A stretch of DNA of 18,074 bases from a bacterium UBA6115 (GTDB lineage Bacteria; Bacillota_A; Clostridia; Christensenellales; Aristaeellaceae). A program made the position numbers and the translations under genes. A model generated the notes under the pieces. It was not told where the DNA came from. It saw only the letters and a list, made by a program, of their open reading frames with translations, and did not search any database. This document shows positions 4,526 to 18,021 of the stretch, piece after piece (within the stretch, counting starts at the first letter, position 1; every line of letters starts with the position of its first letter). The stretch spans positions 1-18,074 of the forward strand of contig DIWD01000035.1 of the NCBI GenBank assembly GCA_002428405.1, in the 5' to 3' direction.

Positions 4526-4571
4526 TCCGCCATCTGGGATATGCGTTAAAAGCCTGATGGGGGAAATCTCT

Positions 4572-5087
4572 GTGTTGCGTATGCATGTATTCCTGGTCGG
4601 AATGTCAGGTGGCGGGAAAACCAGCCTTGGCAGGAAGGCGGCGGCCAATTTGAATGTCCGCTTTTTGGATACCGACCAGCGCGTCAGCGAAATGATGGGG
4701 ATGAGCGTCAATGAGATTTACGCCGCTTTTGGCGAGGATTTTTTCCGCAATGCCGAGTCCGGCGTGCTCATTGAGCTGGCAGGGGAACCGCCCTGCATCG
4801 TTTCAACCGGCGGCGGGCTCCCCACCTTAAGGGAGAATGTGCAGCTGATGCAGAACCATGGCGTCATTATCCATATCGACCGCCCGCTGGATCAGATTTT
4901 GTCGGATATCAAGCTTGACCGGCGTCCCACGCTCAGGGATGGCTCCTATGAGGATGTCATCCATGAATACAGCAAGCACATTGGCTTCTACCACGCTTGC
5001 GCAGACTATACGCTGGATAATTCTCTCGGCTTTACCGTCGGCGTAAACAACCTGACTGCACTCATCCAAAAACTGAACCAGGAGTGA
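4572..5087 (+). CDS. aroK: Shikimate kinase
   Basis: It phosphorylates shikimate at the 3-hydroxyl with ATP, a step on the way to chorismate and the aromatic amino acids. The P-loop is GMSGGGKTS (about residues 10-18). The shikimate- and Mg-binding D-x-D is LDTD (33-35), STGGG is the substrate-binding GGG motif, and DRRPTLRDGS is the lid with its arginines. The length of about 171 residues is normal. The start is uncertain: GGGGGA at 4558-4563 favours GTG 4572 or TTG 4575; ATG 4581 is farther away, and ATG 4557 overlaps the ribosome binding site. The gene stands alone, without other aromatic pathway genes nearby, and is the last intact chromosomal gene before the island. Confidence 0.9.
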   Translation: MLRMHVFLVGMSGGGKTSLGRKAAANLNVRFLDTDQRVSEMMGMSVNEIYAAFGEDFFRNAESGVLIELAGEPPCIVSTGGGLPTLRENVQLMQNHGVIIHIDRPLDQILSDIKLDRRPTLRDGSYEDVIHEYSKHIGFYHACADYTLDNSLGFTVGVNNLTALIQKLNQE

Positions 5088-5161
5088 CTGCGGAGTATTA
5101 GCACACTCCCTCCTGCCTTCTTATCTTATGCTTGATTCTGCCGGCATATGTGAAACCCTGA

Positions 5162-5185
5162 AACGTTCCCGTTTCAGGGCTTTCA
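5162..5185 (-). terminator. Displaced terminator of the original tRNA-Thr gene
   Basis: A hairpin whose arms include CTGAAAC and GTTTCAG with loop GTTCCC lies directly downstream (in minus-strand sense) of the displaced tRNA 3' fragment. On the minus strand it is followed by GGGTTTCAC, a weak T tract. Its place suggests that it ended tRNA-Thr transcription before the island was inserted. Confidence 0.5.
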
Positions 5186-5231
5186 TTGGAGCTGATGATG
5201 GGACTCGGACCCATGACCTCATCCTTACCAA
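5186..5231. repeat. Left attachment repeat: displaced tRNA-Thr 3' fragment
   Basis: It is identical over 46 bases to 15516-15561. On the minus strand it reads from the end of the anticodon loop through the T arm, the 3' acceptor strand and CCA. The match stops at 5232, and what follows cannot complete a tRNA. It is most likely the original chromosomal 3' end of the tRNA gene, pushed away by integration. Confidence 0.9.
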
Positions 5232-5596
5232 TGCGGTTTAGGCTGTTTATGTAGGTTGAAGAAAGTGGAATTAAATAAGTGAAATCAACGCTTTTCATGA
5301 TCTCTCGTATCATTAGGTGCTAACGAGTGATAAGCGCGTAGGGGTAAAAGTAGGGGTCAAAACATATTAGGAAAAATTGGTTTATAGTCAATTGTGTAGT
5401 GCACTATTCAACAAACACTGGATACGGAAATTGAAATTCCAGAATCAGAAACCCGAGCATTGTGTACGCTCCACCGCCACCCTTGACAGAACCTTGAGAA
5501 ACGCTGTTCATGTATCGCCGAAGGCGAAGAACTCATCAGCAAGTCACGAAAGCGGTCGCCGCCGGAAGCGCAAGCATAGCTTTTCCCAAGCACCTG
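5232..5596. other. Non-coding left end of the island
   Basis: No convincing gene is seen on either strand. Besides the arm-type repeat it holds short nested palindromes near 5301-5335 (CTCGT/ACGAG and TATCA/TGATA). The open frames across 5377-5896 have no family resemblance and run against the transposase relic. Confidence 0.5.
5338..5360 (+). repeat. Left candidate integrase arm site (two GTAGGGGT units)
   Basis: Two units GTAGGGGT are separated by three A's and followed by CA. The same arrangement with GTAAGGGT units occurs at 15424-15446 near the other end, in the same orientation. The position about 110 bases inside the left attachment repeat suggests an arm-type integrase binding site; this role is inferred. 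Confidence 0.5.
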
Positions 5597-6559
5597 TCAA
5601 GGGTAAGCCGCCCTCGGCGGTGGTTGCGCCGCGGGACCCGTAACATCGCCTCCGGCTCTGAATCTATCAGCAAAGGCAGGCGGCGCATGGCGAGCCCTGT
5701 ATTGCGGCGCCGGCGTCAAGTAATTCAAGGAGTAGGCAGGCCGCTGTTCGTTGAAGAAATGGATGTAGTCCTCGACTTCCCGGCCAATGGATTCATTTCC
5801 AGTCACATGGAAATCCGAAAACATCTCAGCCTTGATCCAGCTGTTGATGACTTCCATGGCGGCGTTGTCCGTCGGTGTTCCTGCACGGGACATTGAATGG
5901 ACAATGTTGTACATCGGGAGCAGCTCATTGAAGCTTTTTGAAGCGTAAACCGAGCCCTGGTCCGAATGCAGAATCGTCTTGTACTGCGGATACTGCTTCT
6001 TCACCGTCAGCAGGTCTTCCAGTCCGCTGAGGTACGTCATCCGGTCGCCGCGCTTGGACGACAGTGAATGGCTGATGATTTCGTTTTTCCAGAGATTCAT
6101 GTACAGCGTCAGCTCATAGTAGATCCCCTTGACCTTGAAGACCGTCATGTCGCTGACGAAGCATTGCAGCGGCGCATCGACGCTCATTTCTGACAGGACA
6201 AGGTTCGGGAACACCTTGTGCGACTCGCCGGATTTCCTGTAGCACTTGTGCGCGTAAGGATCCGAGAGGATTAGGCCGGTATCCAGTCAGATTTTCGCGT
6301 TCAGCCACCGGTACCCATGAGACGGATACCTCAGATGGTATTCCTGAAACAGCAGGATGGCGCTCACCAGACTCTTGATGCGACGACAAGGATGTGACAG
6401 GTGTTTCTTCCAGTTGTAGAAACTGCTCCGCCTGATTCCCATTGTCTCACAAAGCAGCTTCACGGCAAACGCGCCGGACAGCTCCAAGATCACTTGGTAT
6501 TCTCCTTGCCGAAAGGTATAAATTCCTTCTGCGCACCATCTCCCTTCACGCTGAGGCAA
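5597..6559 (-). pseudogene. IS3-family (IS150-type) transposase OrfB, inactivated
   Basis: The minus-strand frame reads through the helix-turn-helix part (VKLLCETMGIRRSSFYNWKK), the YPSHGYRWLNAKI segment and the whole DDE catalytic domain: Asp in CFVSDMT, Asp in ILHSDQGSVYAS, Glu in NAAMEVINSWIKAE, then FFNEQRPAYSLNYLTP. A TGA at 6287-6289 interrupts the frame just after LNAKI, where relatives usually have Arg, so it is probably a CGA-to-TGA change. The frame then continues without a shift (LDTGLILSDPYAHKC). About 15-20 residues usually found between YAHKC and FPNL seem to be missing. No orfA and no clear terminal inverted repeats are seen, so this is a remnant of an IS inside the island. The C-terminal tail after about 5690 is not part of the family. 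Confidence 0.85.
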
Positions 6560-6620
6560 TAACGGACAGAACCGGTATGTAGGAAAGAAGCATCGCCAAA
6601 AACAACATCATCGTTTTCAT
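6546..6620 (-). pseudogene. Orphan signal-peptide reading frame next to the IS relic
   Basis: A 24-codon minus-strand frame starts at ATG 6620 behind a GGAGAAT ribosome binding site. It encodes a classic signal-peptide start (MKTMMLFLAMLL) ending in SVIASA, an A-x-A signal-peptidase motif, and then stops at once at TGA. Its end overlaps the first bases of the transposase relic. The simplest reading is the 5' stump of an exported-protein gene cut off by the IS insertion. A genuine 24-residue hydrophobic peptide is the alternative, less likely because only one basic residue and a cleavage motif are present. Confidence 0.55.
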
Positions 6621-6793
6621 GACCATTCTCCATTCACAAGGTCAGACGTATGGGGAAACGGCTCAAGTAGCAAGCACAGTGGTAAATCACAGCTAAATAA
6701 AGTTCAACTGAACAATACTACTTAAAGAGCAATGTAGCAATCCTGTTTGCCTGTGAGCCAATCAAAACGCATCTTATGAGAAAGTGCATCGGT

Positions 6794-6823
6794 TTGACAT
6801 CAAAGAAAGCATTGTGTTATATA
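6794..6823 (+). promoter_or_regulatory. Promoter of the 220-residue secreted protein gene
   Basis: A perfect TTGACA (6794-6799) and TATATA (6818-6823) are spaced by 18 bases, 46 bases before the ATG. The region 6621-6793 before it holds no other feature that I can see. Confidence 0.6.
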
Positions 6824-6869
6824 TTGGTTAAAAATCAGGAATTAACCGTGGGAGGGGGATGAAAACAAC

Positions 6870-7532
6870 ATGCGGAAAGGTTCCTTTGGAATCGCGCATT
6901 TCCTGCTCCAGTTTCTCATTGCATGCCTTGGACTTGGCGTCGTCCTGGCCGAACAAGTAACGGTTCCTCCTAGGGACATATTGCAAAGCTATCAAGACGT
7001 CTTGCTGGGCAAACGAAGCTACCTGCAGTGTAACTATTATGACGATATCTATCACGAGACGTATATACCGAGTGATATTCTCGAGTGGTATGGTTTTGAG
7101 TTTGAGCTTCCGTTGCGATTTGTAGAATTCACTGTCACCGATCTGGATGCGGATGGCTTTCCGGATCTCATCCTGCGGCTTTCGGAGGACTTCGGCTTTG
7201 AGTTGTTGCGGTATGAGAACGGACAGGTCTACGGTTTTCCCTTTGTCTCTCGAGCAATGGAAGAAATCACGACCAGTGGTGATATCCACGGCTCCAGCGG
7301 TGCGGATGACTTTGGGTGGTATCAGGTACGCTTTTATACCGAAAAGATGGAAACATTTGAAACATGCTGGAAACATGCTGCTGAGAATGGCCGCTATCAA
7401 TATGTTATATGTAATGAGGAAGTATCCGAAAGTGACTTCACGGAATTCTGTGACGGGCTTTGGAGAAAAGACCATGTCTGTTGGGTAGAATACACGCCTG
7501 AAAACCTTAATGCACTCATACCAGACTATTGA
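6870..7532 (+). CDS. Secreted protein with a Ca-binding-like D-x-D-x-D-G motif, unknown function
   Basis: A 220-residue protein with a hydrophobic N-terminus (FLLQFLIACLGLGVVLA), read as a signal peptide cut near residue 28. At residues 88-102 it has TVTDLDADGFPDLIL, where Asp91, Asp93, Asp95 and Asp99 form the calcium-loop pattern of FG-GAP/VCBS and dockerin-like repeats. Only one such motif is present, so it is not a full propeller. GGGAGGGGG lies about 11 bases before ATG 6870. The gene has its own promoter and terminator, a single-gene unit. Similar small exported proteins with DLDGDG-type loops are common in Clostridia, but I do not recognise a named family. Confidence 0.75.
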   Translation: MRKGSFGIAHFLLQFLIACLGLGVVLAEQVTVPPRDILQSYQDVLLGKRSYLQCNYYDDIYHETYIPSDILEWYGFEFELPLRFVEFTVTDLDADGFPDLILRLSEDFGFELLRYENGQVYGFPFVSRAMEEITTSGDIHGSSGADDFGWYQVRFYTEKMETFETCWKHAAENGRYQYVICNEEVSESDFTEFCDGLWRKDHVCWVEYTPENLNALIPDY

Positions 7533-7540
7533 ATACCAGC

Positions 7541-7571
7541 AAAACAGCCGCTTGAAAGGCCGGCTGTTTTT
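7541..7571 (+). terminator. Intrinsic terminator after the D-x-D-x-D-G protein gene
   Basis: The stem AACAGCCG / CGGCTGTT with an inner loop CTTGAAAGGC is followed by a T tract (TTTTTG). It starts 9 bases after the stop codon. Confidence 0.85.
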
Positions 7572-7873
7572 GTTTTCGGTAACCGGGATGAGCCTGACAG
7601 GAATCAAAATGGTACTGCTTGAGTCAAGCGGAGCATGTTGGTCTGGATGAACAAATCCGCGCACATTTCCTGCTCTGTTGGCTGGTCCTGTTACTGGCAT
7701 GCATTGTTGAAGTCAGGGTGTGCGACACCTGAAGAAACATCCGCAGGGGAACGGACCATCTGCAAGTCGATTTCTTCGAATCCAGTCACGGCAGTTTCAG
7801 CCAGACAAACACTCTCACGGCGGGGCAGAAGAAAATCCTCAATGCGCTAGAGGTGAGCAATCCCCCTTGGATA
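7572..7873. other. Intergenic stretch without a credible gene
   Basis: About 300 bases with only short open frames and no ribosome binding sites. One frame around 7660-7730 reads a leucine-rich hydrophobic run (HFLLCWLVLLLACIV) resembling a signal peptide but has no start signal and ends soon after, so it may be the trace of another exported-protein gene. Confidence 0.4.
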
Positions 7874-7903
7874 CTGACACGCTCACTGACAAACGAATAC
7901 AAT
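7874..7903 (+). promoter_or_regulatory. Candidate promoter of the FxLYD-like protein gene
   Basis: CTGACA (7874-7879) and TACAAT (7898-7903) are separated by 18 bases, 55 bases before the ATG at 7959. Confidence 0.5.
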
Positions 7904-7958
7904 CGACAAACAAACCCTACTGACGACTATTATGAATAGATGCATGAAAGGAGGCTAC

Positions 7959-8681
7959 ATGAAACGTTTTCTTGGGATCATAACCTTTCTGACACTGCTG
8001 TTTGGCCTGGTGCTAACTTTTCCTACCCTAGCCGAGGGCAAACTAGCCCTCCGGGAGGAAAAACTGATCTACTATGATGACTTTGACAGGATAACACACT
8101 TCAAGTACTCGGCGATCGTCAAGAACACAGGCAAAGATACGACAACGATGCTGGAAAGTTCTTTCAGGCTGCTGGCAAAAGGGGGTGAAATCCTGTTTGA
8201 AACAAGCGGTCATCTGGACATGTACCCCCAGGCGCTTCATCCAGGGGAAACAGGCGTCATCTCACTTGACGGAACCCTGCCAGAAGGCAAAACGAAGAAA
8301 AACGTCACAGGCCACAAACTGCAGCTAAATTGGGCAGACGAAGCCTTTCCCGTCATTAGCCGCTTTCCGGCCACAGCGGAATATGTCGTTATAAATGAGG
8401 ATGACGCGGATATGCTGCTGGCAGGGATCCTTGCGGAAGTGACCAACAACACCGGCAGCACGGTCTTTGACCTGCGCTACACAGCTATCTTGAGGGATCA
8501 GAAGGGAAAGCTGCTGACCACGCTTTATGACGATGTGCTTGATGTGGGCGTCCCGGCCGGCGGAAAGCTGTTGATGCGCAACTATATCGACCATTATCTG
8601 GAAGCCTATATGCGTGAAAACAACATGACGCCAAGCATCGTTGAGGTCATTGCCTTCACGCAGATGTACGACGATTATTAA
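7959..8681 (+). CDS. Secreted protein with two FxLYD/Ig-like repeats
   Basis: The 240-residue protein starts at ATG 7959, fixed by AAAGGAGG at 7947-7954; an upstream in-frame ATG (7932) precedes that site. The signal peptide is MKRFLGIITFLTLLFGLVLT, cut near TLAEG. The mature part is two beta-sandwich-like repeats of the FxLYD type: one around FKYSAIVKNTGKDTTTMLESSFRL and one around LAGILAEVTNNTGSTVFDLR, each continuing with a hydrophilic turn and a PGET/PAGG-type segment. This pattern (N-T-G in a turn, then alternating hydrophobics) is typical of extracellular or lipoprotein modules of unknown binding role. No lipobox cysteine is present. The C-terminal domains of the island's C11 peptidase show a similar beta-rich pattern. 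Confidence 0.75.
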   Translation: MKRFLGIITFLTLLFGLVLTFPTLAEGKLALREEKLIYYDDFDRITHFKYSAIVKNTGKDTTTMLESSFRLLAKGGEILFETSGHLDMYPQALHPGETGVISLDGTLPEGKTKKNVTGHKLQLNWADEAFPVISRFPATAEYVVINEDDADMLLAGILAEVTNNTGSTVFDLRYTAILRDQKGKLLTTLYDDVLDVGVPAGGKLLMRNYIDHYLEAYMRENNMTPSIVEVIAFTQMYDDY

Positions 8682-8720
8682 CAAGGGAAGGATACCAACT
8701 GCCTACTTCTGCACTAGCTT

Positions 8721-8928
8721 TTAGCTTGCCACGGGATAACGGGCGCCTTTGACCTCGATTATCTCCAAGCGTACGCGGATATCTGCCAGCTCTTCGGAGG
8801 TGAAGCGGATGTCGGCGGCGCCAATGTTGTCCCGGATGTGCTCTACTTTCTTGGTGCCGGGGATAGGTACGATGAAGGGTTTTTGCGCTAGAAGCCAATG
8901 CCCAGCTCCTTCAGCACGTCGAGTAGGC
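8721..8928 (-). pseudogene. Aldo/keto reductase fragment with internal deletion
   Basis: The minus strand carries two pieces of one aldo/keto reductase. The first (8891-8928, LLDVLKELGIGF) matches the middle of the barrel, before the usual VPFSPLG stretch. The second (about 8721-8890, LLAQKPFIVPIPGTKKVEHI, then IGAADIRFTSEELADI, ending GARYPVAS and TAA) is the NADPH-binding C-terminus. The two are in different frames and lack about 60-70 residues between them. The 5' part of the gene is absent: homology stops at about 8930, exactly where the plus-strand propeller gene begins. It cannot make an active enzyme. Confidence 0.85.
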
Positions 8929-9000
8929 TCAATTATTACCGGGAAAAATGCGGGTAGGGATGAATCTTTGCTTGTCATAGTGAGCGAAGAGGGGGAAGTC

Positions 9001-9885
9001 ATGCAGGCCGTCATGTTTCCCAACAAAACAGACTGGCTGATCTACCACGCGGGCAGCTATTACGCTATTGGGACAATGTATCTGGATGTTCCTGACAGTG
9101 AGGTAGCATTGGCTGCGACACAGGGGATGCTGACAAGGCTGGATGGCGGGGGCAGCACGTTGTGGTCCAGTGCGTATACGAACGACTCCTATTCCGGCAT
9201 GACGTTCAGTAAAGGCGTGATGGCCGCTGATTCGCTCATTCTCATTGGAGATGGGTATGACACCGGGGCGAATTCCGTAGCCGGACTTATCCACCGTACG
9301 GACTTGAACGGTCAGGTCATGTGGACCACAGAAGTCGCGCTTGGAAGTGATACCATCATCAGCGATATTTGCTTATCCCCTTCAGGCCTGATAACTGGAA
9401 GTTTTGCAGACATCCGGTATGATGAGAAGCAAGGTTTCCTGGTGGGGCGTAAAGGCAGTGTGTTCTGCCTTGATATGGACGGCAGGCTACTGTGGGAATT
9501 TGCGCTGGACGATACGCTGATGGCCGATTACATTGTGCCCGTTGCGGGTGGTGTTCTCTTGGGCAACCGTAGTATGGACCTGGAATACGACCCATTGCAA
9601 GGCGAAGGCTGGCTTTTGCTGATGGACGAGGCGGGAAACGTGAAGGCGACTGACAGCGTGCCTGACATCAGCAGCGGAAAACTTGAGCTGATGGGCTTGA
9701 AAACGGACATATCAGGCGAACCCTTGCTGTACGGCGAACTGCTGGACGAGCCGGGTTCCGCGAGCCTGACCTTCCTGGCCTGGCAGGATTTACCGGCAAT
9801 CGAAAGACCGGAGTACGTGTCCGCGGCGGCATTCGAGATTGAGGACAAGATATTTGTGACAGCGCCGTGTTTAATGGCTCAATAA
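9001..9885 (+). CDS. Beta-propeller-like protein, 5'-truncated
   Basis: It contains repeated blades of about 40-50 residues with a turn of the type D-x-x-G followed by a hydrophobic strand: MLTRLDGGGSTLWSS, GLIHRTDLNGQVMWTTEV, GSVFCLDMDGRLLWEFAL, WLLLMDEAGNVKATDS. This resembles PQQ-like or quinoprotein-type propellers. The reading frame is open upstream to about 8931 and already shows a blade (LLVIVSEEGEVMQAVMF), but no signal peptide remains; the frame runs into the aldo/keto reductase relic. GAGGGGG lies 6 bases before ATG 9001, so a shortened protein of 294 residues could still be made. Related proteins are exported; without its leader this one would stay inside the cell or be non-functional. 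Confidence 0.6.
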   Translation: MQAVMFPNKTDWLIYHAGSYYAIGTMYLDVPDSEVALAATQGMLTRLDGGGSTLWSSAYTNDSYSGMTFSKGVMAADSLILIGDGYDTGANSVAGLIHRTDLNGQVMWTTEVALGSDTIISDICLSPSGLITGSFADIRYDEKQGFLVGRKGSVFCLDMDGRLLWEFALDDTLMADYIVPVAGGVLLGNRSMDLEYDPLQGEGWLLLMDEAGNVKATDSVPDISSGKLELMGLKTDISGEPLLYGELLDEPGSASLTFLAWQDLPAIERPEYVSAAAFEIEDKIFVTAPCLMAQ

Positions 9886-10051
9886 GTGTGTAGAATCACA
9901 AAATAAAGAACTACCATCGTTGTGTCCGCTTCACACCTCCGAGCGGATCCCTTCCTTGATTTATTGGGGCTTTTTCGGTCCAAACGGCCATGCCCGATTC
10001 GACCGCATCTCTCGACAGCCGCAAAACGCCGGAACCAATGAGGAACTGTAT

Positions 10052-13000
10052 ATGAAGAGAAAATATTTGTCCTATTTACTAGCCTTCATCGGCGTCGCCA
10101 TGCTTTCCTTACAGGGGGTGAAAGCGGAGCCGGTCCGGCAGGGATTTGAAACCCAGACTATCATGGTGTACATCATCGGCGCAGACCTTGAGTCCGAAGG
10201 CGGCATGGCGACCGCCGACATCCTAGAGATGCTGAAGGCAAAACCTGACAAGCAGCGCCTGAACGTGCTGGTGATGACGGGCGGCACCAAGCAGTGGAAG
10301 GCACGGACGATCCCCACGGACAAACTCAGTGTGTTCAAGATCGAGGGAGTGAACCCCAAGCTTCTCCATCAGTGGGAACGAGGGAGCATGGGCGAAAGCG
10401 CGTCGCTGACGCAGTTTTTGGACTATGGCGTGACCACCTATCAGGCGGATTCATATGGTCTGATCCTCTGGGACCATGGCGGCGGTCCGTTGGTTGGCTT
10501 TGGCATGGATACCGCGTACAACAATGACGGCCTGACCTTGCTTGAACTGCGTTCCGCACTGCAGGCAAGCAGCTTTGGCAAGGGCATGCGGCTGGAATGG
10601 CTGGCTTTTGACGCTTGCCTGATGGCCTCGCTGGAGGTCGCGTCCCTGCTGGCTGAGTTTGCAGACCACATGATCGCCTCTGAGGAAGCCCTGCCAGGCA
10701 GAGGGTTTGACTACACGTTCCTGTCGGACCTGGCCGGTACCGGGTTGACCGGGCCTGAAGTCGCACGGCCCATCATCGACCGTACCTATGCGTTCTACAA
10801 GGCGTATGCCGCAAAAAGTCCGGATAACCTTTACCCCGTGACCCTTTCGTTGATGGACCTCAACAAAGTGCGCCCTGTGCAGCAAAAGCTGGATCTGATG
10901 TTCACCAGCCTGGACAAGGGGCTTCAGGCGGGGATCTACTCAGATATCGCCCGCAACAGGGACAAGACAAAGGATTACGGCCGCAGCACGACGACAAATG
11001 ACTACGACCTAATCGACCTGGCCGACCTGAGCGACAACATGGCATCGCTCTATCCCGCGCAGGCTGATGAACTGAGGGCTGCCATCGGGGATATGGTGCT
11101 CTACAACAAATCCAATGCGCCCCGCACAAACGGCCTGTCCATTTATTTCCCCCTGCGCAACAAGCAGATGTTTTCAAAAGGGTGGGGAAAGCTGTATCAG
11201 GAGTTTGACATTGCCCCTGCCTACAGGCTCTTCATAGAGAAATTCGGGAACATCCTCCTGGCAGACAGCTTGAGCAAGTGGACAGGTGAAGACGCACCCG
11301 CCGTCTCTTTTGACGAAGTGACAGGCGAGTATTTCATCCAGCTGACCGCAGACCAGGTCAAGAACTATGAGCGTGGCGAATATTATATCCTGGCGCAGCT
11401 TGAAGGTGAGGAATTCCTGCTCAACTACATGTCAAGCGACGTCACGCTGGACGCGCAAAACCGCCTGAAGGCCAACTTCAACGGCAAGACCATGTTCCTA
11501 GAGGATCCTACCCTGCAAAACAGTGTGATTCCCTACATGGCGGAAAAAGAGAATATCCAGCAGATCGCACGCTATCAGATCCCCATCGTCGCTGCCCGGA
11601 CGAACAGCACGGGTCAGCTTGAGTCGATGCGCGCGCAGTTGCTGGCGGAAATCAACAAGGAAACCCAGGAAGCCCGTATCGTTGGTGCGATACGCGACGA
11701 CGAAAGCGTTAGCCTCTTGGGCAAACGCGACCTGGAGCTGTCCGAATGGGACAACATCTACCTTGTTTACAACAGTTCCTACCTCACCCGGGACGATCAG
11801 GGCAACATCCTGCCGCTGGGCGACTGGGCTTCCATCGACTTTCCCCGGGTGATCTCCTACGACCTGAAAAATGGGCTGAACGTCCGCTACGGCGCCCTTC
11901 GGGCGGATATGTACGACTTCTACGTCCTGATCTCCATCGTCGATACCCAGGGACATGCCTCCTCCTCGCAGCTCATGCCCCTGAAGTCCGGTGCTGTCCC
12001 TGTCGGTGACCTGCCGCCCGTGAAGAGACCGCAGGCAAAGGTCCTTGAGTATCCGGTAAGCGGCAATCAGCCTTTACTGCTGACGCAGCAGCAGGGCATC
12101 AAGGTCACGCTGGCTGGCATCGAGCAGATCCTCGATAACCCCCAGCACCCTGGCGCCTCCGCGACCCTGACGCTGAATTTCCTGCTTGAAAACGAGCTGG
12201 ACGAAGAGGAAGGCATCGAAGTGGACTGGGCAGCGGTAAACGGCATCATGATCAACGCGTCGAGCTATGCCACGATTCCCGCCCGCGGCAGCGCGATCAT
12301 GACGCTGAACTTTCCCCTTGACGGGTCACCCATCGGCTCAAGCCTACATGAGTCGGGGATCACGCGGGCTGAGGACATCCGTTTCCGCTTTGAGCTCAAC
12401 CGCAATCAGGTCAACTACTTCAATAGAATCTTCACGCAGGAGATTCAGCTCCTGACAGGCATCGATCTGCTCACGAAGGACAAACCGGTGCCGCAGATCA
12501 ATGAGGGATCCGGGCTGCTGGCGCAGGAAGGCGGCGTCAAGATCGAACAGCTGGCGGACCCATTGCTCGAAAATGATGCCCTGTATGTGCCGCTGAAGAT
12601 CACCAACACTTCCGACATCTATGACACTGTGCGCCTTTACCAAAGCTCCGTCAACAGCATCATGGCCCCGATAACAATGGACAATGATGTCCCGCCGGGC
12701 ACAGTGCTCTACACTTGCGCGCACATCGCCGCCAAGCGGACGGTCCTGCCGCCTGATCTGGCGCAATACCAATACATGTATGACGGCCTTGACAATCTTG
12801 AGGCGCTGGAGATCGATCAGGTCAAAGAAATGACCCTGCGCTTCGCCCTTGAACTCAACACCGGGGGAGACCGGCTTGCCGGAGGTGTCATCATGTATCT
12901 GATGCAGCCTGTCAGCATCCTTGTGCCGGGCATGGACAGCTTTGTTCAGCCGCTGGACACCGTTGGTGACGAACTGTTCAACCTTCAGGGCATCCGGATT

Positions 13001-13303
13001 GTCCGCCTGAAAAGCGACCCAGCCGGCAAGAAAATCTACATCCAAAACAGCAGCCCGTATGCCATCCACGTCTCTACCTTTGGCTATGTGAAGGCGGACG
13101 GGGAAGACTATGCCGGAAACACGCCCATCAATGCCACAGTCTCACCCGGCAAATCATCCTACGTCAAGCTGTTTGACTTCCTACCCGGCATTGAACCCCA
13201 GGCCAGCGAACTTACTTTCTACATCGACATCATCAACCTGGACAACAACACGCTGCTGGCGCAGTCCGACAAGGTTACCCTCCGCTTCCCCATGAGCGAA
13301 TAA
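10052..13303 (+). CDS. Secreted clostripain-family (C11) cysteine peptidase with long C-terminal beta domains
   Basis: A 1083-residue exported cysteine peptidase. The start is ATG 10052 (AGGAA before it, signal peptide MKRKYLSYLLAFIGVAMLSL cut near VKA); upstream in-frame codons are non-coding. The catalytic domain spans about residues 35-440: TIMVYIIGADLESEGG, then LILWDHGGG with His142, and LAFDACLMASLEVA with Cys189, the His/Cys pair of clan CD peptidase family C11. These enzymes usually cut after Arg or Lys. Residues about 450-1083 are beta-rich and contain Ig/FxLYD-like segments (VPLKITNTSDIYDTVRLYQS and others), probably for binding cell walls, substrates or partners. No sortase motif, transmembrane anchor or SLH domain is seen at the C-terminus, so it is probably released. 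The next gene follows after 35 bases and is probably co-transcribed. I found no clear promoter in 9886-10051. Confidence 0.88.
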   Translation: MKRKYLSYLLAFIGVAMLSLQGVKAEPVRQGFETQTIMVYIIGADLESEGGMATADILEMLKAKPDKQRLNVLVMTGGTKQWKARTIPTDKLSVFKIEGVNPKLLHQWERGSMGESASLTQFLDYGVTTYQADSYGLILWDHGGGPLVGFGMDTAYNNDGLTLLELRSALQASSFGKGMRLEWLAFDACLMASLEVASLLAEFADHMIASEEALPGRGFDYTFLSDLAGTGLTGPEVARPIIDRTYAFYKAYAAKSPDNLYPVTLSLMDLNKVRPVQQKLDLMFTSLDKGLQAGIYSDIARNRDKTKDYGRSTTTNDYDLIDLADLSDNMASLYPAQADELRAAIGDMVLYNKSNAPRTNGLSIYFPLRNKQMFSKGWGKLYQEFDIAPAYRLFIEKFGNILLADSLSKWTGEDAPAVSFDEVTGEYFIQLTADQVKNYERGEYYILAQLEGEEFLLNYMSSDVTLDAQNRLKANFNGKTMFLEDPTLQNSVIPYMAEKENIQQIARYQIPIVAARTNSTGQLESMRAQLLAEINKETQEARIVGAIRDDESVSLLGKRDLELSEWDNIYLVYNSSYLTRDDQGNILPLGDWASIDFPRVISYDLKNGLNVRYGALRADMYDFYVLISIVDTQGHASSSQLMPLKSGAVPVGDLPPVKRPQAKVLEYPVSGNQPLLLTQQQGIKVTLAGIEQILDNPQHPGASATLTLNFLLENELDEEEGIEVDWAAVNGIMINASSYATIPARGSAIMTLNFPLDGSPIGSSLHESGITRAEDIRFRFELNRNQVNYFNRIFTQEIQLLTGIDLLTKDKPVPQINEGSGLLAQEGGVKIEQLADPLLENDALYVPLKITNTSDIYDTVRLYQSSVNSIMAPITMDNDVPPGTVLYTCAHIAAKRTVLPPDLAQYQYMYDGLDNLEALEIDQVKEMTLRFALELNTGGDRLAGGVIMYLMQPVSILVPGMDSFVQPLDTVGDELFNLQGIRIVRLKSDPAGKKIYIQNSSPYAIHVSTFGYVKADGEDYAGNTPINATVSPGKSSYVKLFDFLPGIEPQASELTFYIDIINLDNNTLLAQSDKVTLRFPMSE

Positions 13304-13338
13304 GCCCTATCACATAATTATAGAAAAGGAGAAACAAA

Positions 13339-14004
13339 ATGAAAAAACTGTTCCCGCTTTTGCTGGCCATGGTACTGGTCTTCAACCTGACAAGCGTCTC
13401 CGCCGCGAACACGGCACCACTACCCGGTTCCCAACCCGCCGGCCTCAGCGTCAGGATACCCGCTGAGGTGAAGAAGGACCTCGCCGATTCGCGCGCGTCA
13501 TTCCCCAAGCCCAATGACACGGTTGCCATCAAGGACGGTGTCATCACCATCACCTCAAACAACGTCACAGTGGAATTCCAGGTACCCTTTGGCTGGATCG
13601 GCCTCACCCAGGATATCACAAAGCAGATGACCGACTACGCCATGATGACGGATCCGCTGGCTGTCCTCAACTCCCTGATCAACAACAATCTCAGCATTCT
13701 GGCGGTGGAGCCCCAGACCAACGCGCTCATGTTCGCCTTCTTTGTCGCGGACAACCTCAGCATACTGTTCAATGACCTGCAGAGCCAGGAAATGCTGGAT
13801 ATCGCGCTTACGACCTACGCGGGAACCGCGGTTGTCGCCGGCGATAGGAATTACGTCAGCGTCATAGAAGACGGCACCCTGATCTTCTTCACCTTCTACA
13901 ACGGTGTTCGCGTTGGGTTCCAGCTGATCCTGGCGGGCGCTGAGCCAACGTCTGATGAGATTGAGATCCTGACAGCCTTCGTTGAACCGACCAAGTACAT
14001 TTAG
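13339..14004 (+). CDS. Small secreted protein downstream of the C11 peptidase, unknown function
   Basis: A 221-residue protein with a clean signal peptide (MKKLFPLLLAMVLVFNLTSV, cut at SA/AN) and a Pro/Ser-rich start of the mature chain. The body, from about residue 55, is a compact alpha/beta domain (VAIKDGVITITSNNVTVEF, GWIGLTQDITKQMTDYA, GTLIFFTFYNGVRVGFQLIL). I do not recognise the family. AAAAGGAGA lies 6 bases before ATG 13339, and the gap to the peptidase gene is only 35 bases with no terminator, so the two form an operon. A secreted partner, substrate or inhibitor of the peptidase is a reasonable guess from position only. Confidence 0.7.
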   Translation: MKKLFPLLLAMVLVFNLTSVSAANTAPLPGSQPAGLSVRIPAEVKKDLADSRASFPKPNDTVAIKDGVITITSNNVTVEFQVPFGWIGLTQDITKQMTDYAMMTDPLAVLNSLINNNLSILAVEPQTNALMFAFFVADNLSILFNDLQSQEMLDIALTTYAGTAVVAGDRNYVSVIEDGTLIFFTFYNGVRVGFQLILAGAEPTSDEIEILTAFVEPTKYI

Positions 14005-14085
14005 CGCTTCGATGAACAGGCATATAACCTGAATGGCCAAAACATTTGACCTGTCAAAGACCACCTACGAATTTTGCTCAATCAG

Positions 14086-14388
14086 CTAATCGCTTGTAGA
14101 GAGCTTATATGGAATTTTGTTATCCTCTGCATATTTCTGTGAACAGGAACCTTTGTTGATTACTAGAAACAGATTAGGGCACTCCGCGAATGCGTCCTCC
14201 CCGATACTGGTCACGCTGTCTGAAATCTATGTGTTAGTCAGGTAGCCACTGAAGTAAAACGCGCGTTCTCCGATGGTTGTCACGCTGTCTGGAATCGATA
14301 TGATAGTCAGGCTGTCACAGAAGCTAAACGCACTTTCTCCGATGGTTGTCACGCTGTCTGGAATCAAGATGTTAGTTAGCAAATAGCA
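14086..14388 (-). pseudogene. C-terminal relic of a BspA-type leucine-rich-repeat protein
   Basis: On the minus strand the sequence reads three LRR_5/BspA repeats with the signature IPDSVTTIGESAFSFC, IPDSVTTIGERAFYFS and ISDSVTSIGEDAFAEC. The typical closing segment follows (INKGSCSQKYAEDNKIPYKL) and the frame ends at TAG 14086-14088. An in-frame TAG at 14227-14229 interrupts the repeats, and no N-terminal part is present: upstream of 14388 the sequence no longer fits the repeat. BspA-like proteins are large exported surface proteins that bind host or matrix ligands. It lies convergent to the C11 operon. Confidence 0.85.
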
Positions 14389-14614
14389 GCACTGTTCACG
14401 ACCCATATTCCTCTGTTCAGAATTCGCCTTTGTCGTGTCCGATTTGTACCCCCTCCGTGTCCAGTTTTATCTTTCAAGTTCATAGTTATTAAGTTGTCAA
14501 TAAGTTGTCAGTAGAAAAAGCTCGCCTGAATGTGGCGGGCTTTTCAATCTTGGTCATATCTAGACAGGAAAATGTGCAGAATACTATGTAACTTTCCCGC
14601 TGTTTTGGTGCATT
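14389..14614. other. Intergenic stretch between the LRR relic and the integrase
   Basis: No gene is seen. It holds two copies of AAGTTGTCA (14491-14499 and 14502-14510) and a terminator-like hairpin. The missing N-terminal part of the integrase should lie here but no related reading frame remains. Confidence 0.45.
14515..14545. terminator. Bidirectional terminator-like hairpin upstream of the integrase
   Basis: The stem AAAAGCTCGCC / GGCGGGCTTTT (11 bp, one wobble) with a 7-base loop has A and T tracts on both sides, so it could stop transcription in either direction. Confidence 0.7.
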
Positions 14615-15415
14615 TTGTATGGTTTAGCTCCATGCTTTACTTGGTCCGCCAGCATCAGGAAGCACATCGCGTCACTACAGGGAGCCGTCAAGCAGGCGGT
14701 TGAGAACGGCCTGCTCATGAGGAATGTAGTCGAGAATGTCAAGCTGCCCAAGCTTGAAGGGAAGGAGATTGCTTACCTCACGCCAGATGAGCAGCACACG
14801 CTGCTGGCGGCCCTGCCGGATAACACCCAAGGCAGGGCGATCCGCTTCATCCTGGGCTCAGGCCTGCGGGCTTCCGAACTCTGCGGCCTGCGCTGGTCTG
14901 ACATTGATGAGGATTCCTTCACCATTCGCAAGGGTGCACAGTATGTGAAGGAGGCTTCTGGCAAGACGCAGAAGTTGGTCCTCGCTCCACCTAAGACGAG
15001 GGCAGGTAAGCGGACCATCCCACTCACCAGTGTCATGTTGGAGCTTCTTGATCAGCAAAGAAAAGCTCAGATTGCCGCTCGTCTGGCTGCAGGGATTGAA
15101 TGGCAGGGAGGCACACCAGGGGAAAAGAACACGCCAGTATTTGCCACTGAAGTCGGGACGGTATATGATCGGACCAACCTTGACCGGACGCTGAGGATCT
15201 GCTTGAAGAAAGCAGGACTCCCCAGCAGAGGTCTCCACGCGCTGCGGCATACCTTTGCCACCAACTGGGTCCGATCCGGCGCAGACCTGCGAACCCTCGC
15301 GGAGATTATCGGGCACACCAATGTTGCCTTCACGATGCAGCAGTATGTGCACTCCGATATGACCACCAAAAGGGCAGGCATGCTGGCTGTTGAGCAAGGG
15401 CAAAAACAGGCATAA
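14615..15415 (+). pseudogene. Tyrosine recombinase (phage/ICE-type integrase), N-terminally truncated
   Basis: The catalytic domain is complete: Arg in GSGLRASELCGL, the H-x-x-R box in GLHALRHTFATNW, His in IIGHTNVAF and the nucleophile Tyr in MQQYVH. Before it lies the second half of the core-binding domain (SIRKHIASLQGAVKQAVENG). The arm-binding domain and the first part of the core-binding domain, about 110 residues in Tn916-type integrases, are missing. Family resemblance begins at about 14645 and only a TTG start without a ribosome binding site is available. The gene ends 100 bases from the tRNA-Thr attachment site, as expected for the recombinase that inserted this island. Without the arm-binding domain, regulated excision is unlikely. 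Confidence 0.85.
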
Positions 15416-15423
15416 AAATGCTG

Positions 15424-15446
15424 GTAAGGGTAAAAGTAAGGGTCAA
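15424..15446 (+). repeat. Right candidate integrase arm site (two GTAAGGGT units)
   Basis: Two GTAAGGGT units separated by three A's lie 9 bases after the integrase stop and about 70 bases inside the right attachment repeat. They match the pair at 5338-5360 except for one base in each unit. The paired position at both ends fits arm-type binding sites of the integrase. Confidence 0.5.
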
Positions 15447-15473
15447 TCAGAGAAAAGCGAAATAAATGATTAA

Positions 15474-15512
15474 AGAAAAACCCTCGATAAACTCAGTGTT
15501 ATCAAGGGGTTT
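15474..15512 (-). terminator. Terminator of tRNA-Thr, supplied by the island
   Basis: On the minus strand, just after the tRNA CCA, CCTTGATAA pairs with TTATCGAGG (one wobble) and is followed by GTTTTTCTTT. It lies on the island side of the attachment repeat, so it came with the island and replaces the original one at 5162-5185. Confidence 0.75.
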
Positions 15513-15515
15513 GAG

Positions 15516-15561
15516 TTGGAGCTGATGATGGGACTCGGACCCATGACCTCATCCTTACCAA
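15516..15561. repeat. Right attachment repeat within tRNA-Thr
   Basis: The 46 bases are identical to 5186-5231. They cover the tRNA from the anticodon loop to CCA, so the island restored the 3' part of the gene on integration. Confidence 0.9.
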
Positions 15562-15592
15562 GGATGTGCTCTACCGCCTGAGCTACATCAGC
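15517..15592 (-). tRNA. tRNA-Thr (anticodon GGU)
   Basis: On the minus strand a 76-base tRNA folds fully: acceptor GCTGATG/CATCAGC, D stem GCTC/GAGC, anticodon stem CATCC/GGATG around loop TTGGTAA (anticodon GGT), T stem ATGGG/CCCAT with loop TCCGAGT, discriminator T and an encoded CCA. It serves the threonine codons ACC and ACU. The gene is intact although it is the insertion site of the island. Confidence 0.97.
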
Positions 15593-16074: not shown

Positions 16075-18021
16075 ATGACGGACACGAATTCTCTCGCGGC
16101 GATGACTGTCGTGGAGCTGAGAAAATATGCAAGGGAGCAGGGCATCACGCTCTCAACGCTCACGACCAAGGCCGCGATTCTTGAACGCATCAATGAAGCG
16201 CTCAATGAAATCTCCATGAAAGCGGGAAAACCCGCATCAGCGGTAAAAACAGACAGGGAGGAAAAAGAGCCTCCTCGCCGGGCGATGATCATCATAGATG
16301 ATGGCGATGAGCCGCTCCGCACTGACGTTCCGCCGCAACCGCGCCCCCGTCCGGACAAAAACAAAACATCAACCGGAAAGGTAAAGCCTGCCTTTACGCT
16401 GCAGGGGTCCCGCGCCTGGCATAATCCACAGCCTTTCTCACAGAACCAGACGCAGCAGGGCAGATATGCCCCCCAGCAGGGCCAGTCCGGCACTTTTGTC
16501 CGGGACGCCGGTGAGACTGACTTTGGCGCATATCCGCCTGCCCGTTCACGGACCGCCCTGCCAAAGGTCTCCCGCTTTGGCCCTGAATCTACCTCCGATA
16601 TCCCCGAACCATCCATCGAAATGATGACTGCGGCTGTCCAGCCTCATGTTTTCCGCACCCCCGCACAGCAGACAACCAGACAGAATGCTTACGGAAGCGG
16701 AGCATTCCGCTCTATGCTGCCAGCCCAGGGGCCGGCATTGACACCTGATATGCCGTATGTGCCGGAATTGCCTATGCAAGAGGCGGACCTTATATCAACT
16801 GAAACCACAAAGGAAAACCGGCTGACCGCCGCAATCCCGGAATTGCTGGCCGCCGGGGAGCTGGGCGACGGGGCGGGCGTGCTTGAAATCCAGCCGGATG
16901 GCTATGGATTCCTGCGTTCCGGAAACCTCCTGCCGGGACGGAATGACGTATACATATCCGGCACCCAAATCCGTCGCTTTCACTTGCGCAATGGGGATTA
17001 TATCCTCGGCAAGACCCGCCCCCAGCGGGACAGCGACCGCTATGCCGCGATGCTCTACATCACGCACATCAACGACGCGGAAGCGGAGCAGACAGCCAAA
17101 TTTGGTTCGGCGTTGTCCGAGGCCAAGCAGCGGCGCGACTTTGATGATCTGACACCCGTTTATCCGAACCGGCGCATCCGGCTGTCCAGCCGGGATGAAA
17201 ATGACCTTGTGCTGAGGCTCATCGACCTGTTCGTGCCGGTTGGTTTTGGTCAGCGCGCCATGATTGTCGCCGCGCCAAAAACCGGGAAGACTACGATTCT
17301 TAAAAAAATCGCGCTTTCCCTGAAGCATAACCATCCCGACATCCATACCATCATGCTGCTGGTCGATGAGCGTCCGGAAGAGGTGACAGACCTGAAGGAC
17401 ACGGTCGGCGGGGACATTTTCTATTCAACATTTGACGAACCGGCGGAGAGCCACGCCAAAGTAAGCGAACTGACACTGGATCGCGCAATGCGGCTGGTGG
17501 AATCCGGGAAAGATGTCGTCATTCTGCTGGACAGCCTGACCCGCCTGTCCCGCGCCTATAACACGCTGATGCCAAATTCTGCGCGAGTAATGACCGGCGG
17601 CCTCGCGGCAGGTGCCATGAATAAGCCCAAGCGCTTTTTTGGCGCCGCGCGTAACCTGAGGGAGGGCGGCAGCCTGACCATCATCGCCACTGCCCTGGTG
17701 GATACAGGCAGCCGCATGGACGGCGTCATCTTTGAAGAGTTCAAAGGGACCGGCAACATGGAATTGACACTGGACCGCCTGCTCTCCGAGCGCCGGCTCT
17801 TTCCTGCTGTCAGCCTGCTGCGTAGCGGCACCCGCCATGAGGAACTCCTGCTGAGCCAAAAGGAGCTTGACATCACTGCCAAGGTCAGGGGGAACTCCTC
17901 AGCCGCAAGCGAGCAGGAGGCCATCTCCCTTCTGTTGTCTATGCTTGAAAAGACCAAGGATAACGATGAGTTCATCACCCGGTATGATGACTGGATGAAA
18001 ATGCTGCGCAGCAATAGCTGA
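16075..18021 (+). CDS. rho: Transcription termination factor Rho with a long disordered insertion
   Basis: A hexameric RNA-dependent ATPase that releases RNA polymerase from untranslated transcripts. The 648 residues contain the Rho_N helical domain (about 5-43), then some 200 low-complexity residues rich in Pro, Gln, Arg and Thr (about 50-250), the cold-shock-like primary RNA-binding domain (GAGVLEIQPDGYGFLRSGNL to about 330), and the RecA-type ATPase: Walker A APKTGKTT near 400-407, Walker B VVILLDSLTR at 481-490, and the Q-loop region TGGLAAGAMN. AGGAGG lies 8 bases before ATG 16075. The family norm is about 420 residues, so the excess is the insertion. Walker A has Thr where E. coli Rho has Ala (PPKAGKT). 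Confidence 0.95.
   Translation: MTDTNSLAAMTVVELRKYAREQGITLSTLTTKAAILERINEALNEISMKAGKPASAVKTDREEKEPPRRAMIIIDDGDEPLRTDVPPQPRPRPDKNKTSTGKVKPAFTLQGSRAWHNPQPFSQNQTQQGRYAPQQGQSGTFVRDAGETDFGAYPPARSRTALPKVSRFGPESTSDIPEPSIEMMTAAVQPHVFRTPAQQTTRQNAYGSGAFRSMLPAQGPALTPDMPYVPELPMQEADLISTETTKENRLTAAIPELLAAGELGDGAGVLEIQPDGYGFLRSGNLLPGRNDVYISGTQIRRFHLRNGDYILGKTRPQRDSDRYAAMLYITHINDAEAEQTAKFGSALSEAKQRRDFDDLTPVYPNRRIRLSSRDENDLVLRLIDLFVPVGFGQRAMIVAAPKTGKTTILKKIALSLKHNHPDIHTIMLLVDERPEEVTDLKDTVGGDIFYSTFDEPAESHAKVSELTLDRAMRLVESGKDVVILLDSLTRLSRAYNTLMPNSARVMTGGLAAGAMNKPKRFFGAARNLREGGSLTIIATALVDTGSRMDGVIFEEFKGTGNMELTLDRLLSERRLFPAVSLLRSGTRHEELLLSQKELDITAKVRGNSSAASEQEAISLLLSMLEKTKDNDEFITRYDDWMKMLRSNS

Follow-up and report, generated by a model that had tools for sequence, protein, structure and literature searches.

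A contig from the Clostridia bacterium UBA6115 (DIWD01000035.1, assembly GCA_002428405.1) carries the same 46 bases twice, and the question it raises is whether the DNA between them is an integrated island, whether that island can still move, and whether its cargo makes it an unusual element. The whole stretch analyzed, here called the window, comprises 18,074 nucleotides. An intact tRNA-Thr(GGU) gene was called by ARAGORN at 15517-15592 on the minus strand, in agreement with Rfam's tRNA model at 68.4 bits. Bases 15516-15561, the 3' 45 nucleotides of this tRNA plus one base, are identical over exactly 46 bp to 5186-5231, a displaced 3' fragment of tRNA-Thr in the same orientation (minus strand) that would be the far attachment (att) site. 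The copies start 10,330 bp apart and belong to a wider repeat that is 93% identical over 55 bp. A tyrosine integrase open reading frame (ORF) lies between them. The passages of the Islander paper (PMC4383910) that define islands in tRNA genes describe an intact tRNA, a displaced fragment in the same orientation, and an integrase ORF between the two, over 2 to 200 kb; the window shares all three of these components. An initial annotation had described a region of about 10.3 kb between perfect 46-bp repeats, one in the intact tRNA and one in the displaced fragment, and had placed the core genes aroK and rho outside it. All of this was borne out, and Pfam placed aroK (SKI domain) at 4557-5087 and rho at 16075-18021. 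The further claim that the boundaries are defined to the base held in part: the 46-bp identity block fixes the ends, but the single base is not fixed. The G+C content is 52.5% between the repeat copies and 54.5 to 54.9% outside, a difference too small for composition alone to reveal the island.

If the region is an insertion, relatives should have aroK, a single intact tRNA-Thr, and rho at an empty site, as the initial annotation had predicted. A scan with the rho protein yielded 15 loci (L001 to L015), in which the tRNA and aroK context was examined. Six of them (L001, L002, L004, L005, L006, and L007, the last with aroK cut by a contig end) span aroK, tRNA-Thr, and rho, and five of the six have no large insertion between these genes. 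The sixth, L006, is empty between aroK and the tRNA (the 3' side of the tRNA), and about 8.5 kb sits between the tRNA 5' side and rho (L006 1521-10001). Only the tRNA and rho were seen in L003, and no aroK match was present in the examined stretches of L008 to L015. At an E value of 1e-4, tblastn with the island proteins submitted gave no match in any of the 15 rho loci. With the island removed, the joined window flanks gave a 431-column alignment to L001, the closest relative, at 75% identity that ran unbroken through the tRNA. The empty sites and this alignment support the reading of the region as an island.

The insertion also exchanged the terminator of the tRNA. A hairpin beside the displaced fragment (5150-5181, minus strand; -21.3 kcal/mol, z -4.6) falls within an 82-bp, 88% alignment to the tRNA side of the empty site in L001. 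Because of this alignment, and because the L001 counterpart also folds well, it can be identified as the ancestral tRNA-Thr terminator, now stranded. A second hairpin, with a T run after it (15475-15507, minus strand; -12.8 kcal/mol, z -3.3), lies downstream of the intact tRNA. Since the right-hand alignment to L001 ends at the end of the tRNA, this terminator was brought by the element, and the 3' part of the intact tRNA would likewise be element derived. The right-hand alignments to L002, L005, and L007 extend 14 to 18 bp beyond the core, into one arm of the second hairpin, so this hairpin may have been picked up by the element at a tRNA-Thr locus in some other lineage. Both copies of the tRNA-Thr sequence also have C at what we take to be T-loop position 55 (GGTCCGAGTCC, in 5186-5231 and 15516-15561), a nearly universal tRNA base. 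This position is T in all 12 relatives that matched the pattern in a search of 300 genomes, and the change in the window therefore looks derived.

The integrase ORF (14615-15415, plus strand) is convergent with the tRNA and lies 101 bp from its 3' end. It matches PF00589 and contains the R, HxxR, H, and Y motifs, which we take to be catalytic. The initial annotation was thus right to place a tyrosine recombinase beside the tRNA, but the gene is truncated at its N terminus. Its frame encodes 266 amino acids, compared with 387 in P0003, a full-length close relative (75% identity), and the listed relatives mostly have 375 to 390 amino acids with both PF14659 and PF00589. Homology starts at 14621-14645, at about residue 131 of P0003, leaving about 130 N-terminal residues missing; tblastn of five integrase relatives against the window found no credible N-terminal part elsewhere in it. 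A closer relative, P0002 (80% identity, 327 amino acids), may itself be cut. The N-terminal region of such integrases binds arm sites, and self-excision of the island by the truncated protein would probably be impossible.

The truncated integrases of the window, L074, L075, P0007, and P0089 all begin to show homology at about residues 121 to 138 of P0003, with unrelated sequence before that point. The case for a breakpoint hotspot is weak, because L074 and L075 are sisters and P0089 appears by eye to belong to the same group, because L076 is cut elsewhere, near residue 245, and because some full-length divergent integrases also start aligning in that region.

A sister element (L072, in genome G113) is intact. 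Its 378-amino-acid integrase lies beside tRNA-Thr(GGU), the copies of its 83-bp repeat are 10.6 kb apart, and the identity block of that repeat ends at the same tRNA base as that of the window. It encodes a CI-like repressor, an excisionase-like protein, a piece of a CHC2 primase, a DUF3987 protein, a RusA-like resolvase, and a type II restriction-modification pair. At L072 10245-12418, the cargo consists of an EcoRI-type methylase and a nuclease of the GmrSD/HNH type. Both L073 and L070, the latter from the closest relative's genome, have the primase and DUF3987 protein in common with L072; in addition, a repressor matched in L070 and an excisionase in L073. We take L072, and in part L070 and L073, to be satellites like those of P4 or the phage-inducible chromosomal islands (PICIs). 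When 13 L072 proteins were compared with the window at an E value of 1e-2, only the integrase matched and the other 12 gave nothing. Among the window ORFs scanned with Pfam there was no primase, helicase, repressor, or excisionase, and the backbone of a phage satellite was thus not found there.

An integrase tree, whose deep forks are open, places the window and L072 in different groups, and for this reason tRNA-Thr(GGU) may have come into use as a site on two separate occasions. L070, L071, and L076 group together at 100/100; L071 and L076 are at tRNA-Val(GAC), and L070 is by eye beside a 3' piece of tRNA-Val. A fourth user of tRNA-Val, L078, is distant in the tree. The integrase and tRNA are convergent in six related loci as they are in the window. 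By eye, hairpin-like sequence also lies between the integrase stop and the tRNA in L071, L072, L074, L075, L076, and L078, of which only L072 was folded.

Tandem pairs with a 12-bp period lie inside both island ends, and their motif occurred in none of 200 shuffles. The right pair, GTAAGGGTAAAA-GTAAGGGTCAA (15424-15446, plus strand), starts 93 bp from the tRNA 3' end, and the left pair, GTAGGGGTAAAA-GTAGGGGTCAA (5338-5360, plus strand), starts 107 bp from the repeat. A tandem pair was found 85 to 97 bp from the tRNA end in five of seven loci, the window included (in L078 with a period of 11); the pair in L075 lies at 118 to 123 bp, and L074 has none. Shuffles of the seven stretches placed a pair at 85 to 97 bp in 0 to 7 of 500 trials, and none of six empty-site controls has a pair there, one having a pair at 221. 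The left pair is offset from the repeat by 106 to 107 bp in the window and by 107 bp in L072, where the motif differs (TGCTGTCAA, a 12-bp pair). Because the sister element shows the same geometry with a different motif, the tandem pairs are probably integrase arm-type sites, as judged from their position, orientation, and repetition.

A further tandem repeat, TGTCAATAAGTTGTCA, with a period of 11 and a strong hairpin after it, occupies 14495-14545. It is expected 0.04 times per window and occurred in 8 of 200 shuffles. It resembles the pair and terminator of L072 and L073 and may be a leftover of another element end; no tRNA-like core was seen by eye at 93 or 107 bp from it.

The cargo is a mixture of broken and apparently intact genes. 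Nearest to the displaced fragment is a remnant of an IS3-family transposase in two frames on the minus strand (5597-6559, comprising 5597-6214 and 6287-6559); both match NCBIfam transpos_IS3 below its curated cutoff, and the first contains rve domains. An ORF of 220 amino acids (6870-7532, plus strand) matches no family at an E value of 0.001, and one of 240 amino acids (7959-8681, plus strand; 249 if read from 7932) has distant homologs in 19 of 100 relatives. Both have signal-like N termini. A C-terminal fragment of an aldo/keto reductase follows (8721-9026, minus strand; positions 244-287 of the 291 in the PF00248 profile). A beta-propeller-like protein with weak propeller matches is encoded at 8929-9885 (plus strand). 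Because the aldo/keto reductase piece sits directly upstream, this ORF has probably lost its N terminus; its two relatives, from a set of 100 genomes, run to 397 and 446 amino acids, the latter frame with one stop. The largest gene (10052-13303, plus strand) encodes a C11 (clostripain-type) cysteine peptidase of 1,083 amino acids with a signal-like N terminus (PF03415, E 1.8e-42). Its C11 domain contains the conserved His and Cys; His142 and Cys189, presumably the catalytic pair, are invariant in all 17 aligned sequences, and the protein scores 29 bits against the NCBIfam clostripain profile, far below the cutoff of 550. Its partner gene (13339-14004, plus strand) encodes 221 amino acids with a signal-like N terminus and a fold predicted to resemble PsbP/Mog1/Tsi3, for which Foldseek returned no match at an E value of 0.001. 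A BspA-type leucine-rich repeat remnant with an in-frame stop completes the set (14189-14409, minus strand; LRR_5 E 1.6e-13 on the stop-free part 14230-14409; 69-bp repeats). Outside the island, the left flank encodes an Orn/Lys/Arg-type decarboxylase, a PpiC-like protein scoring slightly below Pfam's cutoff, genes that we take from their translations to be infC, rpmI, and rplT, and aroK.

The initial annotation had described this cargo as almost wholly secreted or surface proteins, without defense or conjugation genes, and had considered that unusual for an integrase-bearing element. The four ORFs judged intact, the integrase apart, do all have signal-like N termini by a simple hydrophobicity measure, but the IS3 transposase and aldo/keto reductase fragments are not surface proteins. 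PADLOC gave no match at an E value of 0.001 for the seven island ORFs submitted. Conjugation genes were likewise absent among the ORFs scanned with Pfam, a scan outside which short and antisense ORFs fall; neither relaxase nor type IV secretion genes, which would mark an integrative and conjugative element, were found there. The claim of an unusual element is not supported: the integrase is truncated, the window retains none of the sister element's replication or control genes, and several genes are broken. The secreted cargo is what remains of a decayed island rather than a sign of an unusual element type.

We therefore asked what history could have produced this locus. With a high degree of confidence, we propose an ordinary tRNA-gene island that has since decayed. 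A tyrosine-integrase element, probably once a small island resembling a phage satellite, of the type still intact in relatives, would have integrated by recombination between its attP and the anticodon-loop region of tRNA-Thr(GGU). In this event the 3' part and the terminator of the tRNA were both replaced, and the old ones were displaced by 10.3 kb, as the sequence and the empty site show. After this event, or in part ahead of it, the backbone and the integrase N terminus would have been lost and broken genes would have accumulated; the truncation is seen directly, and the former backbone and the order of events are proposed. What remains is an att-bounded scar with four apparently intact ORFs bearing export signals, among them the C11 protease and its partner, and the island is probably unable to move itself.

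Several points weigh against parts of this history. The satellite nature of the window's element is probable by analogy with its relatives, and the backbone occurs in three of eight related integrase loci (seven searched plus the query locus L072); in L071, L075, L076, and L078 the element side is cut short by a contig end, and about 14 kb examined in L074 contained no backbone, only the integrase matching. The integrase has stayed open for 266 codons and has kept its catalytic motifs. Its branch length, computed from the catalytic part only, is 0.12, compared with 0.14 for P0002 and 0.23 for P0003, and is thus no longer than those of its nearest relatives. As the branch is not long and the frame is open, the truncation may be recent or the remaining integrase may still be under selection. 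The range of 85 to 97 bp for the arm sites was picked after the sites had been seen. Finally, the cargo may have arrived with the element or entered later, and both accounts stand.

The second of these accounts, which is compatible with the decayed island, holds that chromosomal DNA entered an already decayed att-bounded scar through an insertion sequence (IS) or recombination, so that the element never carried the protease pair. We judge this a serious possibility that falls a little short of even. In nine stretches of relatives' chromosomes, the C11 gene and its partner lie among neighbors that are not shared, and in eight of the nine no integrase of the window's family is nearby. An IS3 remnant lies inside the island, and the C11 tree groups the window's gene with close homologs at 76 to 83% identity. 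Further contigs encode C11 and partner proteins (P0121/P0243, P0122/P0242, and P0123/P0244) at 76 to 90% identity. On the other side, the empty site tells us no more than that the pair was absent from this locus ancestrally, as expected under either account. In the ninth stretch, from G008, part of an integrase that is 66% identical to that of the window (L034 15008-15406) lies at the end of a contig; some 3.5 kb, including masked sequence, separate it from the C11 pair. Trees of C11 and rho are partly discordant, G008 grouping with G015 and G009 for rho and with G004 for C11; because they differ in sampling and leave several deep forks open, we do not claim gene transfer from this discordance.

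The island could also be mobilizable in trans, with a full-length integrase of the same clade excising and inserting it together with its protease cargo. This too is compatible with decay. Both att cores and both putative arm pairs are present and look intact, and P0003 demonstrates that a full-length close relative exists. We nevertheless consider mobilization in trans rather unlikely: the same cargo was found at a tRNA site in none of the loci examined, no helper integrase came to light in the source genome, seen here through the window alone, and the full-length integrase of the closest genome, G001, belongs to the tRNA-Val clade. A bolder version, in which the att cores and tandem arm sites are preserved while the element's own integrase is reduced to its catalytic part, so that full-length integrases of the same clade keep a cargo-only element mobile and carry the secreted protease with its partner from one tRNA-Thr gene to another, and in which recurrent loss of the integrase N terminus at nearly the same codon is a regular route to lost autonomy, seems to us quite improbable. 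That the repeat arose by an unrelated duplication of the tRNA end, with the integrase next to it by coincidence, is scarcely credible; the absent backbone is all that speaks for it, and it is contradicted by the empty-site alignment, by arm-type pairs whose placement at the two ends matches that in an intact element, and by the integrase-tRNA convergence in six related loci.

Read as a decayed tRNA-gene island, the locus can be compared with known systems. The L072-type satellites share with it the integrase family and the use of a tRNA gene, and L072, at about 10.6 kb, also shares the arm-pair geometry, the tRNA-side terminator, and a similar length. Unlike the window, L072 has a primase, a DUF3987 protein, a repressor, and an excisionase, and its cargo is restriction-modification, whereas that of the window is of the exported type. 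The best solved relatives of P0003 are structures named "Int protein" (6en0, 6emy, and 6emz), which we take to be the Tn1549 integrase. Integrases of the Tn1549/Tn916 type have a catalytic domain in common with the window and a core-binding domain in common with its full-length relatives; they differ in that the window's integrase lacks the N-terminal part and that no conjugation genes were found in its Pfam-scanned ORFs. Cis-mobilizable elements (CIMEs) are att-bounded, nonautonomous remnants of integrative elements. The window likewise has att sites at both ends, each with putative arm sites, and no complete recombination module, and it would be a candidate for transfer in trans. All 2,530 of 50,697 phage records that matched P0003 did so at less than 60% identity, and there is thus no close phage relative of the integrase among these records. 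A scan of viral contigs with P0003 gave four pattern matches and no confirmed relative, and we found no literature joining Christensenellales with a genomic island, an integrase, and a tRNA.

The window clearly exemplifies a well-known type of insertion. In the passages concerned, the Islander paper (PMC4383910) terms such islands putatively active, whereas the integrase here is truncated in a way that is invisible to a filter based on PF00589 only; an integrase-domain filter alone can thus score a truncated island as active. The closest relatives found for this lineage are metagenome-assembled Clostridia. In it, the anatomy of tRNA-gene integration is unusually clear, with the core, both probable arm sites, the swapped terminators, and the empty site all readable. 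The arm geometry, at about 93 and about 107 bp with a 12-bp period, is common to two integrases with different motifs and could help to locate element ends.

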